A DNA stretch of 64,000 nt, from positions 62,001 to 126,000 of the forward strand of contig JAETRR010000001.1 in assembly GCA_021770065.1 (NCBI GenBank). Reading direction: 5' to 3'. Numbering within the stretch: the first letter of the stretch is position 1; every line of letters begins with the position of its first letter. This document shows positions 1 through 4,828 of this stretch, piece by piece. The position numbers and the translations under genes were made by a program. Origin of the DNA: Lachnoclostridium sp. GTDB lineage: Bacteria > Bacillota > Clostridia > Lachnospirales > Lachnospiraceae. The notes below the pieces were generated by a model. That model made no database searches. It saw only the letters and a program-made list of their open reading frames with translations, and was not told where the DNA came from.

Positions 1-633
1 TCCAAAGGTAAGACACACGTCTAAAGGCGCGTCTATCTCACAGGGATGGCCTGCATGAAGCATCTTGTGACGGCAGTAGCAGGTACCGAGACCGATATAC
101 TCAGCCTCCTCCACAATATGGCTGGCACGCTCGTGATCCAGAATGTGCAGGGTATTGGCATTTGTCAGCACCGGCTCCTGAACGAAGACACGTCCAAGAC
201 GGGTTTCCGTCACAAAGAACAGATCTTTTACAAAGTCCTCCTCCACATTCATATATTGGTAATACAATTCACTCAGATATTTCTGATCAATATCCCCTCT
301 GGTGCGCATCAGGGCAAATTCGATAAAGCCGGCCATGGGAGGCGGCATAACAAATTTGCGCACGCCGTTGTGGTAAGAATCTACCAGTAAAGCCTTTTCA
401 CACAGGTGGGTAAGAAACTTTTCCGCCTTTGCCTCACTGGTGTCCCAGATACGGGCGGCCTTTTTTGCTGTAAAGGGGCGCACGGGCAGCAGGGCTACCC
501 ATTTGGCTTCTTTTTCTGTATAGAGCACTTGAAGAATCTTGTAGAGAGTATCCGATACCGGCGCACCCTGGGTAAACCAGTTGATGCGGTCCTCCAGATT
601 CTTGTAAGCGTCTCTGCTTGCCAGATGTCCCAT
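1..633 (-). CDS. 4Fe-4S ferredoxin-like protein, N-terminal part (runs off left edge)
   Basis: Not in the ORF track because it has no stop inside the window. Reading the minus strand from the ATG at 633, after a strong AGGAAGGAGAG ribosome site, gives 211 uninterrupted codons beginning MGHLASRDAYKNLEDRINWF. Residues about 30-90 look like a winged-helix segment (ARIWDTSEAKAEKFLTHLCE). Near the left edge is a cysteine cluster, CYCRHKMLHAGHPCE followed by DVCLTFG, the kind of Cx-C...C...C pattern seen in 4Fe-4S oxidoreductase-associated proteins of Clostridia. It probably binds an iron-sulfur cluster in the cytoplasm; the partner or substrate cannot be told. ORFs 46..390(+), 406..687(+) and 495..683(-) are shadows of it. 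Confidence 0.7.
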   Translation of the reverse strand, partial: MGHLASRDAYKNLEDRINWFTQGAPVSDTLYKILQVLYTEKEAKWVALLPVRPFTAKKAARIWDTSEAKAEKFLTHLCEKALLVDSYHNGVRKFVMPPPMAGFIEFALMRTRGDIDQKYLSELYYQYMNVEEDFVKDLFFVTETRLGRVFVQEPVLTNANTLHILDHERASHIVEEAEYIGLGTCYCRHKMLHAGHPCEIDAPLDVCLTFG

Positions 634-690
634 GATTTTTCTCTCCTTCCTCTTTCTATTCTACTAAGGCGTTTGCGAAACACCTAAAGC

Positions 691-718
691 CGTATAAATA
701 CGACATTTTTGTTGTCAA
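691..718 (-). promoter_or_regulatory. Putative sigma-A promoter for the 4Fe-4S gene
   Basis: On the minus strand TTGACA is followed after 16 bases by TATACG. It lies about 60 bases upstream of the ATG at 633. Confidence 0.4.
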
Positions 719-802
719 GATAAAATATCCCCTCAAGGTTTATAGTAAAATAGAGTTTACCAGAACCTAAATAACCATCCGTCTGAAAGGAGATATACCT
801 AT

Positions 803-868
803 ATGATAACACATAAGCAGCTCTCTTTAGCAAAAATTTCCAGCGGAGGAGCTAAAGGGCAGAGTTGA
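803..868 (+). pseudogene. Transposase N-terminal remnant
   Basis: After a consensus AAAGGAG site an ATG opens MITHKQLSLAKI and then stops after 22 codons. The first 11 residues resemble the start of a DDE transposase common in Lachnospiraceae (recalled family start M-I-x-H-K-Q-L-S-L-A-E-I); everything after is unrelated. I read it as a 5' stump left by deletion of an insertion sequence. The recall is from memory and a database search would settle it. Confidence 0.35.
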
Positions 869-931
869 CAGCCGCTCCTTTAATTCCCGGCCATCCGCCC
901 CCGCTATCGTTGTACAATTCGCCAATGCCAT
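827..931 (-). pseudogene. Short minus-strand ORF with good ribosome site, probable gene stump
   Basis: Reads MALANCTTIAGADGRELKER and ends after 34 codons. It has a good AAAGGAG site 7 bases before the ATG. The product is not recognised. It overlaps the transposase stump on the other strand, so at most one of the two junctions is an original gene. It is listed because the ribosome site is convincing, not because a function is known. Confidence 0.25.
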
Positions 932-1064
932 AATGTGCTCCTTTTGAAGATTTTATCATATAAAAATGGAGATATTGTTCTAACTTTCATCAAAAATTGT
1001 TGATATAATCATATCATTAGATGCATCTGAATACAACAGCAAACTCAAAACAGGAGATCTAGTT

Positions 1065-1304
1065 ATGATTCGATTTATGTACATTCCAAATATGAAAAAA
1101 TTTGCAGAGGCCCTTGAAAAATGTTATGGTAATGTATTGCTTCATCTCTCTGACAATACAACCTGTGATTTAAAATCCAATTCCGCCGCAATGCAAATGT
1201 TGAAAATGCTGCCCTCAGGTTACACCAATCTATGCCTTACCTTTACTGATTCCCGTGATTCCTCTGCTTTTATACAGTATATGGTAACCGCAGCTCATGG
1301 TTGA
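1065..1304 (+). CDS. Small HPr-like conserved protein (79 aa)
   Basis: A CAGGAGATCTAGTT leader precedes the ATG. The protein shares its plan with the 77-aa protein at 40049..40282: KKFAEALEKCYGNVLLHL here against DKFFEVVDSCQGKVELVT there, then LKS, and a final FMxxxxG-like end (FIQYMVTAAHG against VSFMING). That spacing and length suggest an HPr-like alpha/beta fold; the family is uncharacterised and sometimes labelled polyA polymerase in databases. Its stop overlaps the start of the PHP fragment (ATG at 1297), so the two were translationally coupled. It may be non-functional because its partner is broken. Confidence 0.6.
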   Translation: MIRFMYIPNMKKFAEALEKCYGNVLLHLSDNTTCDLKSNSAAMQMLKMLPSGYTNLCLTFTDSRDSSAFIQYMVTAAHG

Positions 1305-1488
1305 CCTGCATATCCACAGCCTCTACAGCGACAACGGGGAGTTTACGCCCTTGCAGCTTGTTGCCCAGTGCAATGCAGGCATATCCATTACAGATCATAA
1401 TTGCGCCCGTATACGCCGCAATAGCGGTATTCATCTGTATCTGCCGATGTATTTTGTCAGGTCTTCAATGTGCCCAAGTCTTGTATAG
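1297..1488 (+). pseudogene. PHP-domain phosphoesterase, truncated N-terminus
   Basis: Begins MVDLHIHSLYSDNGEFTPLQ, the classic PHP motif I (HxH) of metal-dependent phosphoesterases, then reaches ITDHN but with a shortened stretch before it. After ITDHNCAR the sequence is no longer PHP-like and stops at 63 codons; the intact family is roughly 200-280 residues. The ATG overlaps the preceding ORF by 8 bases. Read as a 5' remnant joined to foreign sequence. Confidence 0.6.
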
Positions 1489-1534
1489 CTCCATGAATTG
1501 GAGCTGTAAAACATAACAATCTGATTCCCCTAAT

Positions 1535-1807
1535 TCAGAACGATATCTCCGCCAGGGCCTCTGCCGCAGCGTTGTTTTCCAAAGCGACAGTAAATGTGCT
1601 GCCGCCGACCTGTACACGCATCTTCATTTCTGCATTCTCCTCCTCATGTACCTTATTCAAAAGGCATCTTCTGTGATTTTCCAGCTGCTTCAAAAGCCCT
1701 GCTTTTTTGCCTCTGTTCAGGCAGGCCATACAGCATTCAATACTATCCTCACTGCATCCTGCATCCCTCAGATTTTGAATAATCGCTTCTTTTGAGTCAT
1801 ATTCCAT
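1535..1807 (-). pseudogene. Chimeric remnant: small conserved protein joined to the start of a cyclophilin-like protein
   Basis: The first about 52 residues (AIIQNLRDAGCSEDSIECC ... RRCLLNKVHEEE) match my recollection of a small conserved clostridial protein that normally continues for a further 15-20 residues. The last about 30 residues start with a methionine and read MKMRVQVGGSTFTVALENNA, like the first strand-turn of cyclophilin-like proteins, which are normally above 100 residues; a stop follows at once. The simplest reading is a deletion fusing two adjacent genes. Whether the 90-residue product is made is unknown. Confidence 0.5.
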
Positions 1808-1811
1808 TAAC

Positions 1812-2346
1812 TTCTCTGATCAGATTATCGTAGGCGATGTCTATATCGGAACCGGCGAAACCGATGCCGTCCGCTTTGCGGCAAAAGCCGCACGGGAGCT
1901 TTATGGGGCCTATCCCGGCATTCATTACCATATTGCCAGCGGAAATGCCGTATTTGTAATGGAGCAGTTAGATAAGGGATTGATTGACTTTGGAATCGTA
2001 TTCGGTTCTGTGGATCATGCAAAAGTGGGACAAACCTCTGATCTTATCACAACAGGAAGATAATTACGGGGAATTGACAGCCTGGCTGCAAAAAGAAATA
2101 TCAGAATTGGAAATCGTTGCAACCTCTAACCTGCTCTTCAATGCTTCCCTAATGGTTGAGGAAGGCTTGGGATATGCCATCGGATTTGATAAAATCATCA
2201 ATACCTCCGGCAGCAGCCTGTGCTTCCGCCCTCTCGCACCCAAAAGGGAAGCATCTATGAGCATTATCTGGAAAAAATATCAAGTATTTTCTAAGGCTTC
2301 GGAAAAGTTTATGCAGAAATTGAAAGAACTTCCGGAAATAATGTAA
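1812..2346 (+). pseudogene. LysR-family regulator, missing the HTH domain and with an internal deletion
   Basis: In frame from about 1818 the plus strand reads GDVYIGTGETDAVRFAAKAA and FVMEQLDKGLIDFGIVFGSV, typical of a LysR substrate-binding domain, and stops at 2060. In another frame from about 2013 it resumes WDKPLILSQQEDNYGELTAW to MQKLKELPEIM, the second half of the same domain. About 30 codons expected between the halves are absent and the frame shifts. The N-terminal winged-helix DNA-binding domain is absent. This cannot be a working regulator. Confidence 0.75.
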
Positions 2347-2359
2347 AGAATATTCCGCC

Positions 2360-2710
2360 TTAAAAAATGACCTGGAAATTTCTTTGGATTATAATGTTTC
2401 TTCTAAAATAGAATTTATACCCTGTAAGCTCGGAACGGAACAGTTGATAGCCCGCCTCTAACTGCGGAACTGCTTCATCTATATTGCCGCCCTTTAACTC
2501 TATAAAATAAGCGTTTTTCAAACTATCATTTATCAAAAGGAAATCGCAGCAAGTCCTCTGCGAAATAATATTTCCGTCCAGCTTGTAATGCCGGACATTA
2601 TATTTTTGCTGTGGGTTATTTGCACGATGCTTTCTTTGTGTCCCTGCATCCCTTGAAACAATGATTTTCTGCCGGGATTCACAAAGAGATTTGTCTTGGG
2701 TAAGCAGCAT
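2360..2710 (-). CDS. Small PD-(D/E)XK-like nuclease partner of the AAA ATPase
   Basis: 116 residues. The central part reads CCDFLLINDSLKNAYFIELKG: Asp56, then a strand carrying Glu71-Leu-Lys73, the D...ExK signature of the PD-(D/E)XK nuclease fold, followed by a helix (DEAVPQLEAGYQLF). The gene starts 1 base beyond the ATPase stop (TAG-T-ATG) with a GGGGAGGTGGAG site lying inside the ATPase 3' end, so the two are co-translated. The last about 15 residues (after FYFRR) look out of frame: another frame reads KKHYNPKKFPGHF, so a C-terminal frameshift or truncation next to the LysR remnant is possible. The fold assignment is by motif only, but the pairing is clear. Confidence 0.55.
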   Translation of the reverse strand: MLLTQDKSLCESRQKIIVSRDAGTQRKHRANNPQQKYNVRHYKLDGNIISQRTCCDFLLINDSLKNAYFIELKGGNIDEAVPQLEAGYQLFRSELTGYKFYFRRNIIIQRNFQVIF

Positions 2711-2711
2711 A

Positions 2712-4037
2712 CTACTCCACCTCCCCGGACAAGTATTTTTCTTTCAATAATACCATCTGCTCGTAGTCCCGGTTAATATCTGCTGAAGCCCCATCTATCA
2801 CTTCATTTTCAATAGACCCAAATTCATTATCCGTACAGGACTCTACCTGCCCGTCTTTCAGAAAGAATGCCGACAACTTGGAAAACTGCAGCCATGTATC
2901 CTGTGAAATAATTTTATTCAGTTCCGTTTTATCCACAATTCCGGAAATTCTATCGGCATACAGCAAATTATTAATTGTACCTAAAATATACGGGCTGTGT
3001 GTGGTAATAAAAATTTGATTTTTTCCATCACTCTTAGCCATAGCTATAAATTCTGTTATCAGCTTTTGTGCATTGGGAAACAAATGTGATTCCGGTTCCT
3101 CAATAATAAAATATGCTTTTTTATTGTTGAGCAGATAGTAAAATATGACATTTAAAATCCAGACAACTTCCTGCTGTCCAGAAGATGCAAAATTAATTTT
3201 TACATAACGGTTCTCAGAAACTTGAAGTCTTTCCTCTCCATCTACATTTCTGTATTCTCCCTGCAAAATACGTTTCATCAACTCTGCAGCAGAAAAAAGA
3301 AGCTGCTTATTTATCTTAGTGTCAGTCAAGCGCATAGTGTTCTGGATCATCTGTGTAATGCTGAGAAAAAAGCTTGGCTTTAATTGTAAAATTCTTTCCA
3401 GATAATTCTGTGTACAATAATCCAGATTTTTTTTCTGTGTATCGTCCATAGAACTATAGATATAATTCAGCTGTGTACTCAGCAGCGTAATCATACTGCG
3501 CCCTGCCGGTATATATACAATTTCCGCATTATCATCAAAGAAGCTGTTGATTTTTTCTTTGACATCCTCCAATGCTTCCTGAGATACTAAGGCTGGCTCT
3601 TTTGGCATCATATATTCCAATGAGTTTATAAACTTCGTCAAATCAGGGCTGAGTTCAATCCATATATAATTAGGGGACAGTGAATCTTCCTTCAATGAAA
3701 CCATGATACTCGTCTCATTCTTGTAGCAGCAGGAAAGACACATAGACATATCCATGTGCCATGTGGTGCCAAAAATCTGAAGAAAATTGGAACGTATCTC
3801 TCGCTCTGTACGCCTTTTCAATGAAAGTCTCAGTTCATCATCCATCAATGTGTGGTTCAACAGGCATTGTTTTTTAAACTGCGCAAACAGGATATTTTTT
3901 ATATTTTTAAAGAAAAATATGCTTTTCGCAACTGTACTCTTCCCAGAGGCCTGCGGACCTGTAAATACAGTAAAATCACCAATCTCCAATTCACAGTGAT
4001 CTACCGGCCCTAATTTATGAATCTCTATTTTCTGCAT
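2712..4037 (-). CDS. AAA family ATPase (OLD/PtuA/RecF-like, ABC-type ATPase domain)
   Basis: 441 residues from the internal ATG at 4037, chosen because AGGGAG lies 6-7 bases upstream and the protein then begins at the first strand (MQKIEIHKLGPVDHCELEIG); the ORF-track start at 4091 has no such site. Walker A is GPQASGKST at residues 27-35, an ABC-like signature SSGQQEVV follows a long helical insert, Walker B is AYFIIEEPESHLFP and the switch histidine is in TTHSPYIL. This order is that of the AAA_15/AAA_21 ATPases found in OLD, Septu (PtuA) and PARIS (AriA) anti-phage systems, and of orphan members. No TOPRIM domain is visible; the effector seems to be the separate downstream protein. The gene is intact amid decayed neighbours. 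Confidence 0.8.
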   Translation of the reverse strand: MQKIEIHKLGPVDHCELEIGDFTVFTGPQASGKSTVAKSIFFFKNIKNILFAQFKKQCLLNHTLMDDELRLSLKRRTEREIRSNFLQIFGTTWHMDMSMCLSCCYKNETSIMVSLKEDSLSPNYIWIELSPDLTKFINSLEYMMPKEPALVSQEALEDVKEKINSFFDDNAEIVYIPAGRSMITLLSTQLNYIYSSMDDTQKKNLDYCTQNYLERILQLKPSFFLSITQMIQNTMRLTDTKINKQLLFSAAELMKRILQGEYRNVDGEERLQVSENRYVKINFASSGQQEVVWILNVIFYYLLNNKKAYFIIEEPESHLFPNAQKLITEFIAMAKSDGKNQIFITTHSPYILGTINNLLYADRISGIVDKTELNKIISQDTWLQFSKLSAFFLKDGQVESCTDNEFGSIENEVIDGASADINRDYEQMVLLKEKYLSGEVE

Positions 4038-4132
4038 ACAATGCTCCCTAAAACAATATTTTCTAACATTATACCTTCTTTCCAATTGCATAACAAGTCA
4101 TTTTTCTTCGCAGAAGCGATGTAAACTTCTAA

Positions 4133-4178
4133 GGCCGAAAAGCTGTTTATTGGAAAAACCAATAAACATTTTTCGGCC
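4133..4178. repeat. Inverted repeat / hairpin upstream of the ATPase gene
   Basis: GGCCGAAAAGCTGTTTATTGG and its near-complement CCAATAAACATTTTTCGGCC flank a 5-base loop, a stem of about 20 bp with one or two mismatches. It lies about 95 bases upstream of the ATPase start. It could be a terminator for decayed upstream genes, an attenuator, or an operator for autoregulation. Confidence 0.5.
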
Positions 4179-4251
4179 CTAAAAATTGCCTGCATCTTTT
4201 GCGCCTGCCGCGAACAAATTGTCCGGATGATTGTAAACCCCAAAGAATCTA

Positions 4252-4401
4252 TTATATTTTTGACAGCCCACTAAACATACCGTTAGCTTTCATAAAATGC
4301 GCAATATTAACATGCCGAATTCCATTACGATGTTGAATCAGGTCATTTCTTGTAATCAGATATTTAGAATAGTTATCCTTTCCGCCTGAATTGTTTTCCA
4401 T
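4252..4401 (-). CDS. Unrecognised 49-aa ORF, probably a gene fragment
   Basis: Too short for the ORF track. Reads MENNSGGKDNYSKYLITRND and then IRHVNIAHFMKANGMFSG. The composition is protein-like, the ribosome site is weak (GGAAG). A protein-like stretch in another frame just upstream (FDEYLWMEAFL) suggests a frameshifted longer gene. No function assigned. Confidence 0.3.
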   Translation of the reverse strand: MENNSGGKDNYSKYLITRNDLIQHRNGIRHVNIAHFMKANGMFSGLSKI

Positions 4402-4468
4402 AAGAATGCTTCCATCCACAAATATTCATCAAAACTTAATGTATACCCTCTAAAATCATTATTTGCAA

Positions 4469-4515
4469 GTTAAAGGGGTAATATTTTAATTATTTGAAAT
4501 ATTATCCCCTTTAAC
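4469..4515. repeat. Strong hairpin, A/T-rich
   Basis: GTTAAAGGGG-TAATATTT pairs with AAATATTATCCCCTTTAAC around a 10-base loop, with one bulged base. It has no T-run, so it is not an obvious terminator; it may be a small mobile palindrome or a remnant element end. Confidence 0.5.
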
Positions 4516-4585
4516 AATGCTATTTTAATGCATTTATACGTAACTTACGCAAAATTTGTATGATATCTTCGAATTGGCTTATTTG

Positions 4586-4828
4586 CTATTCCCTATAATC
4601 CTCAGCCTTATATTCCATCCGTAAATATTCCATCTGCGAAAATGCCCCTATATAATTCCTTGTAATCAAATACACCGGATAAAGGGCTGTCTCATACCTT
4701 AATGAATCCTTTTTCTCACATACACGCAGCAGTGCTCGGAATCATGGATACGCACGCTTAAATTCTTCAAGCCTGCTGCCATTGAATCTCCGGCCCCATC
4801 CCATTAATTTCTGTCTCACTCTTCGCAT
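4586..4828 (-). pseudogene. Gene fragment with an in-frame TGA
   Basis: From ATG 4828 the minus strand reads MRRVRQKLMGWGRRFNGSRL EEFKRAYP, then TGA, then FRALLRVCEKKDSLRYETAL and YPVYLITRNYIGAFSQMEYL, ending at 4586. The protein-like character is uninterrupted across the TGA, as if a TGG (Trp) had mutated. The family is not recognised; the piece is about 80 codons and may be the 3' part of a larger gene. Counted as a pseudogene. Confidence 0.5.

Follow-up and report, generated by a model that had tools for sequence, protein, structure and literature searches.

A probable WonAB-type abortive-infection pair in Lachnospiraceae with an effector gene shortened by a 104-bp deletion

Introduction

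Does an intact gene for an OLD-type ATPase, followed at once by a gene for a protein of only 116 residues with a nuclease-like signature, represent a new minimal anti-phage system or a damaged copy of a system that already has a name? The question is raised by a locus in a 64,000-nucleotide stretch of a Lachnoclostridium sp. genome (hereafter the window), where a sequence-only reading had proposed a two-gene defence module with a small, stand-alone effector of a kind that it could not name. We find it quite probable that the pair is a Clostridial (Lachnospiraceae) member of the WonAB-type abortive-infection family, with an effector gene truncated by a recent 104-bp deletion. This is the best explanation of the observed homology, the gene order, the catalytic residues, the location of relatives in a defence hotspot and the deletion itself. 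The locus also illustrates that a deletion product can pass for a new minimal effector in a first-pass reading.

Results

An OLD-type ATPase is followed by a small PD-(D/E)XK-like protein

The two genes and their immediate surroundings comprise the following features.

2712–4037, minus strand: OLD/ABC-type ATPase, a putative WonA-like sensor of 441 aa, with Walker A K33, R180 of PAGRS, the SSGQQE signature, Walker B E313/E314 and H347
2711, minus strand: 1-nt spacer between the ATPase stop codon (TAG, 2714–2712) and the ATG of the small gene (2710–2708)
2360–2710, minus strand: truncated gene for a WonB-like PD-(D/E)XK effector, read as 116 aa, with residues 1–103 homologous to relatives and the last 13 out of frame
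4068–4096, minus strand: promoter-like site TTGTTA-17-TATAAT, about 31 bp 5′ of the ATPase ATG, a consensus match only

The most plausible start of the ATPase is ATG 4037, which is preceded by an AGGGAG ribosome-binding site and had been given, correctly for the ATG used, as the end of the reading frame; position 4091 of the ORF listing is then an upstream start of the same frame. The protein carries the motifs GPQASGKST (Walker A, K33), SSGQQE (ABC signature), IIEEPESHLFP (E313/E314) and TTHSPY (H347), and matches Pfam AAA_15 over residues 2–351 (E = 6.6e-27) as its sole domain, with no Pfam match to TOPRIM anywhere in the 441 residues. Its model resembles the heads of PtuA, OLD, AriA, RecN and Rad50 in structure comparison, and PADLOC profiles that match it include PD-T4-4_A (6.5e-24), PDC-M29 (9.8e-23), AriA and NsnB. 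The initial assignment to the OLD/PtuA/AriA type and the motifs quoted for it are upheld. Across 20 pairs, K33, R180, E313/E314 and H347 are invariant or nearly so, with the Walker A Lys, the Walker B Glu and the H-loop His fully invariant. The two genes are likely to be translationally coupled across the 1-nt spacer. Promoter-like sites such as the one upstream of the ATPase are not commoner here than in shuffled sequence.

Pfam, NCBIfam, PADLOC and PHROGs return no match to the small protein above curated threshold, the sole Pfam match being a sub-threshold one to PDDEXK_11 (E = 0.066), and the effector profile likewise has no significant match among PDB sequences. The protein has the motif D56...E71-L-K73...Q83, and D45, D56, E71, K73 and Q83 do not vary across 20 distinct homologues. 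In an AlphaFold2 model of the intact small protein from a Hungatella metagenome-assembled genome (L004; pLDDT 81.5, pTM 0.82), a strand (57–61) follows D56, a second strand (66–73) bears E71-x-K73 and a helix (77–91) bears Q83; the C-terminal part adds a strand (99–106), a helix (117–129) and a terminal hairpin, and this order of strands and helices is that of PD-(D/E)XK. The top PDB matches of the model are the PD-(D/E)XK enzymes Hjc resolvase and BspD6I, with E-values of 0.005–0.1 (best 0.0046), which are individually weak but concordant. On this modelled structure we assign the family to the PD-(D/E)XK fold, which bears out the partner proposed from the D...ELK signature alone and runs counter to the possibility, raised at the same time, that structure prediction would reveal no nuclease fold.

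Most PD-(D/E)XK folds cut DNA. The PDB matches above are likewise DNA enzymes, and the resemblance of the ATPase to PtuA and OLD would also fit cleavage of invading DNA by a restriction-like or Septu/Gabija-like system, as opposed to an RNA-directed abortive one. We nonetheless consider a DNA-targeting system unlikely, given that toxicity of WonB, the nuclease of WonAB, stopped translation and left host genomic DNA intact (PMC12137116), a precedent by which the Bacillota clade is judged by analogy.

A 104-bp deletion removes the C-terminal part of the effector

Comparison of the small gene with its counterpart in L004 reveals a deletion with microhomology at its ends, followed by a frameshift.

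2403–2409, minus strand: deletion junction, with the 7-bp ATTTTAG common to both ends; L004 has 104 bp more here, and the frame is shifted after the junction

Homology of the window protein stops at residue 103 and some 38 C-terminal residues are gone, while the terminal ILEETL-stop of the family persists in another frame; intact relatives of the same clade have 140–144 aa (about 141), against 116 in the window. In the L004 model the missing part covers the last stretch of core strand 4 together with a helix and the terminal beta-hairpin, and the intact relatives all retain this region, in which FRIV..SK, F.KF and terminal E motifs are conserved. The suspicion of a frameshifted nuclease C-terminus in the sequence-only reading is thus well founded, and its other suggestion, that 116 residues might be a natural minimal effector, gives way to that of a deletion product of a protein of about 141 aa. 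It had further allowed that the small gene could be a truncated piece of a longer non-nuclease protein; truncated it is, but the longer protein belongs to the nuclease family itself.

What remains of the small gene has no further stops or frameshifts, and its non-synonymous divergence from L004 (pN 0.18) is close to that of the ATPase (0.17); synonymous sites are saturated and dN/dS is uninformative, hence only non-synonymous rates are used. Because the remainder is undamaged and has diverged much as the ATPase has, the deletion is probably recent. The truncated effector is probably inactive, and the loss of some 38 C-terminal residues makes the window system most likely non-functional despite its intact ATPase.

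Two other explanations bear on the truncation. In one, the 116-aa protein would still work as a short effector, with its missing part supplied by the ATPase. This would be in line with the retention of D56, E71, K73 and Q83, the lack of other lesions and a pN like that of the ATPase. We think this quite improbable, since the lost region is kept by all intact relatives and makes up a helix and the last part of the core sheet in the model, the residues that now end the protein are read out of frame, and the conservation upstream merely dates the deletion as recent. In the other, assembly or sequencing has produced a false truncation and the system of the strain is in fact intact; the genome is a draft of 145 contigs and intact copies do occur in relatives, but a clean loss of 104 bp between 7-bp microhomologies is typical of biological slippage and not of base-calling error, and we give an artefact little chance.

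The two genes form a conserved unit that is patchy and often decayed

Relatives of the ATPase are found in Roseburia hominis (L003) and in the Hungatella genome (L004) at 65–73% identity, in further genomes of the order at 30–60% and in viral contigs at 26–27%. A PD-(D/E)XK partner of 139–213 aa lies directly downstream in 14 of 15 relatives, counted from the ATPase query alone among those with downstream sequence and with contig-end cases left out. The two-gene linkage proposed earlier is borne out, and the converse possibility, that the ATPase normally occurs without the small gene, is not what we observe; in the single exception (L069) the flanks are present and neither tblastn nor the ORF listing reveals a partner. 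The gap between the genes ranges from -47 to +187 nt in a small-protein profile search, and the distance matrices of the two proteins correlate strongly (Mantel r = 0.866, with 0 of 5000 permutations as high). Taken together, the sequence comparisons indicate that the ATPase and the small nuclease are a real conserved unit. Small-protein matches with no ATPase gene beside them (L075, L076) were set aside; at one of these loci (L039/L075, G341 contig 88) a distant 196-aa relative of the small nuclease lies at the contig end and adjoins a DUF3990-type-looking ORF. At L004:236-611, not far from the intact Hungatella pair, overlapping ORFs encode repeated peptides (FNPQGPRGPR...) that suggest a tandem-repeat or CRISPR-like array.

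Of 392 genomes of the order, 6 have the effector, and within the genus one genome in 16 has DNA that matches the pair. A relative is carried by 10 of 5426 E. coli genomes, with an ATPase only about 27% identical to that of the window. Two of these E. coli loci were inspected, and in both the relative belongs to a P2-like prophage, flanked by its replication endonuclease and portal genes. This site is the gpA-gpQ hotspot, in which Rousset et al. demonstrated anti-phage systems (PMC9122126). Relatives also occur in phage contigs (L044, L086) and on a mobilizable MOBV plasmid (L043), and those in L041 and L048 adjoin SIR2-type candidates. Scans of viral contigs with the window proteins alone return nothing, and tblastn against plasmids with the intact L004 effector returns one distant pair. 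In one of the viral contigs, a further pair of ATPase and small nuclease is flanked by portal-like and terminase-like genes (L086:2584-4324). One partner has been lost repeatedly, as seen from an ATPase frameshift in L048, an in-frame ATPase stop in L072 and an 83-aa ATPase remnant in L044. The location in the P2 hotspot, in phages and on a plasmid, together with the correspondence to WonAB, favours the defence role that had been thought probable. A conserved housekeeping DNA-repair pair of the RecF/SbcCD kind, which the likeness of the ATPase head to RecN and Rad50 might suggest, is hardly credible for genes that are so patchy, so frequently decayed and carried by prophages, phages and plasmids, with a place in the P2 defence hotspot.

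The pair lies in an accessory segment

Two features of the wider locus carry no strand.

661–4824, no strand: accessory segment, approximate extent about 4.2 kb, absent from five congeners and replaced by other inserts in two
4127–4185, no strand: strong imperfect hairpin, present once in the genome and situated upstream of the promoter-like site

The downstream symporter is kept in fifteen congeners, none of which matches the pair. Among seven congeners with aligned flanks, five have the sequences of window 633–661 and 4824 onward only 140–300 bp apart, and the other two hold unrelated inserts, a sortase-type surface protein (L106) and a sugar ABC transporter cluster (L111). Because the flanks abut in five congeners and enclose unrelated inserts in two, this alignment indicates that the pair arrived with the segment of about 4.2 kb, and the patch of accessory genes described at the outset is borne out. 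A transposon was rejected, as no terminal repeats are found at the segment ends. Set against L106-L112, window 661–4824 appears as a variable integration site that lies between a 4Fe-4S protein gene and a sodium:alanine-type symporter gene. Within it, fragments that look like a PHP-domain protein and a frameshifted LysR-type regulator (1065–2346), recognized from translations and not from a database, are convergent with the pair.

The upstream hairpin that had drawn attention is real, with 27-nt arms, a 5-nt loop and a fold z of -5.85, but it is not a conserved part of the system. It matches nothing in Rfam and lacks a clear terminator tail when read on the minus strand, and in the L004 operon only 33 bp precede the ATPase, which leaves no room for such a structure; its single copy, the Rfam result and the L004 spacing rule it out as a conserved element or a repeat. 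The hairpin probably lies outside the system.

Discussion

In intact members of the family the ATPase probably dimerises and, by analogy, may sense a cue of phage infection through ATP binding and hydrolysis. If the WonAB paper is a guide, the C-terminal extension of the ATPase would be where the small nuclease is held and stabilised, and the ATPase would license the nuclease upon infection. The nuclease would then cleave nucleic acid of the host, with tRNA or rRNA as the most likely target, and translation would stop, such that the phage could not mature, in an abortive infection of the WonAB kind. A more divergent scheme, in which the pair belongs to a distinct Bacillota branch of WonAB with its own trigger and target, and in which recurrent loss of a partner would reflect either a high cost of auto-immunity or some remaining role of the survivor, strikes us as doubtful.

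Comparison with known systems

WonAB, from the WASA-1 prophage of Vibrio cholerae and published in 2025, combines an OLD-ABC ATPase with a 16.1-kDa PD-(D/E)xK nuclease, both of which are needed, and acts by abortive infection through translation shut-off; the WonA mutants K34A, R182A, E300A and H333A and the WonB mutant K71A are inactive (PMC12137116). The counterparts of these residues are K33/R180/E314/H347 and K73 in the window and K33/R181/E301/H336 and K71 in the E. coli P2 relative, whose effector is about 16.4 kDa. The likeness thus extends to the two-gene order, an OLD-type ATPase of similar size with K/R/E/H at matching positions, a PD-(D/E)xK partner of about 16 kDa with a lysine at 71–73 and carriage by prophages, while the window pair differs in its truncated effector and in large sequence divergence. 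The sequence collections searched hold no WonAB record that we could find, and the E. coli P2 relative is the only bridge, its effectors matching the clostridial ones at 4.6e-19 in hhalign; the link to WonAB itself is one of residue correspondence, size, gene order and fold and not of direct sequence alignment.

The WonAB authors assign their system to a broader class named 'OLD-ABC ATPase + Novel REase', which 0.96% of bacterial genomes contain, and compare WonAB to PD-T4-4 (PMC12137116). As summarised there, the class was defined in silico by Krishnan et al. 2020, with an example from Anaerovibrio lipolyticus, and contains all WonAB homologues (PMC12137116). Its architecture, compared by description and not by sequence, is that of the window pair, and this is most likely the named class that holds it. 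PD-T4-4 likewise combines an ATPase with a PD-(D/E)XK protein and protects E. coli experimentally (PMC9519451); the window ATPase matches PD-T4-4_A but the small protein has no match to PD-T4-4_B. For PDC-M29, a candidate catalogued in PADLOC, the ATPase of the plasmid relative matches PDC-M29A (2.9e-49) and the intact L004 effector matches PDC-M29B weakly (1.4e-5), as do three of eight family members in all, the window effector not among them; the window ATPase, however, scores as well or better with AriA, PD-T4-4_A and NsnB.

Septu (PtuAB), PARIS (AriAB), OLD and Gabija share related ABC/OLD ATPase heads with the window pair but employ HNH or TOPRIM effectors, in contrast to the small PD-(D/E)XK protein here. 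Septu was rejected on a PD-(D/E)XK-like partner with no HNH match, PARIS on the lack of a DUF4435 match for an AriB-type partner, and OLD and Gabija GajA on a 441-aa ATPase without a C-terminal TOPRIM. Judged by these sequence comparisons, the pair is probably an ordinary member of the recently described WonAB-type family and not a new kind of system. Homologues of WonAB have been reported mainly from Gram-negatives (PMC12137116). The present locus and its relatives extend this family to gut Lachnospiraceae and their kin, connect it with the defence hotspot of P2-like prophages in E. coli and bring to hand intact homologues from anaerobes for testing.
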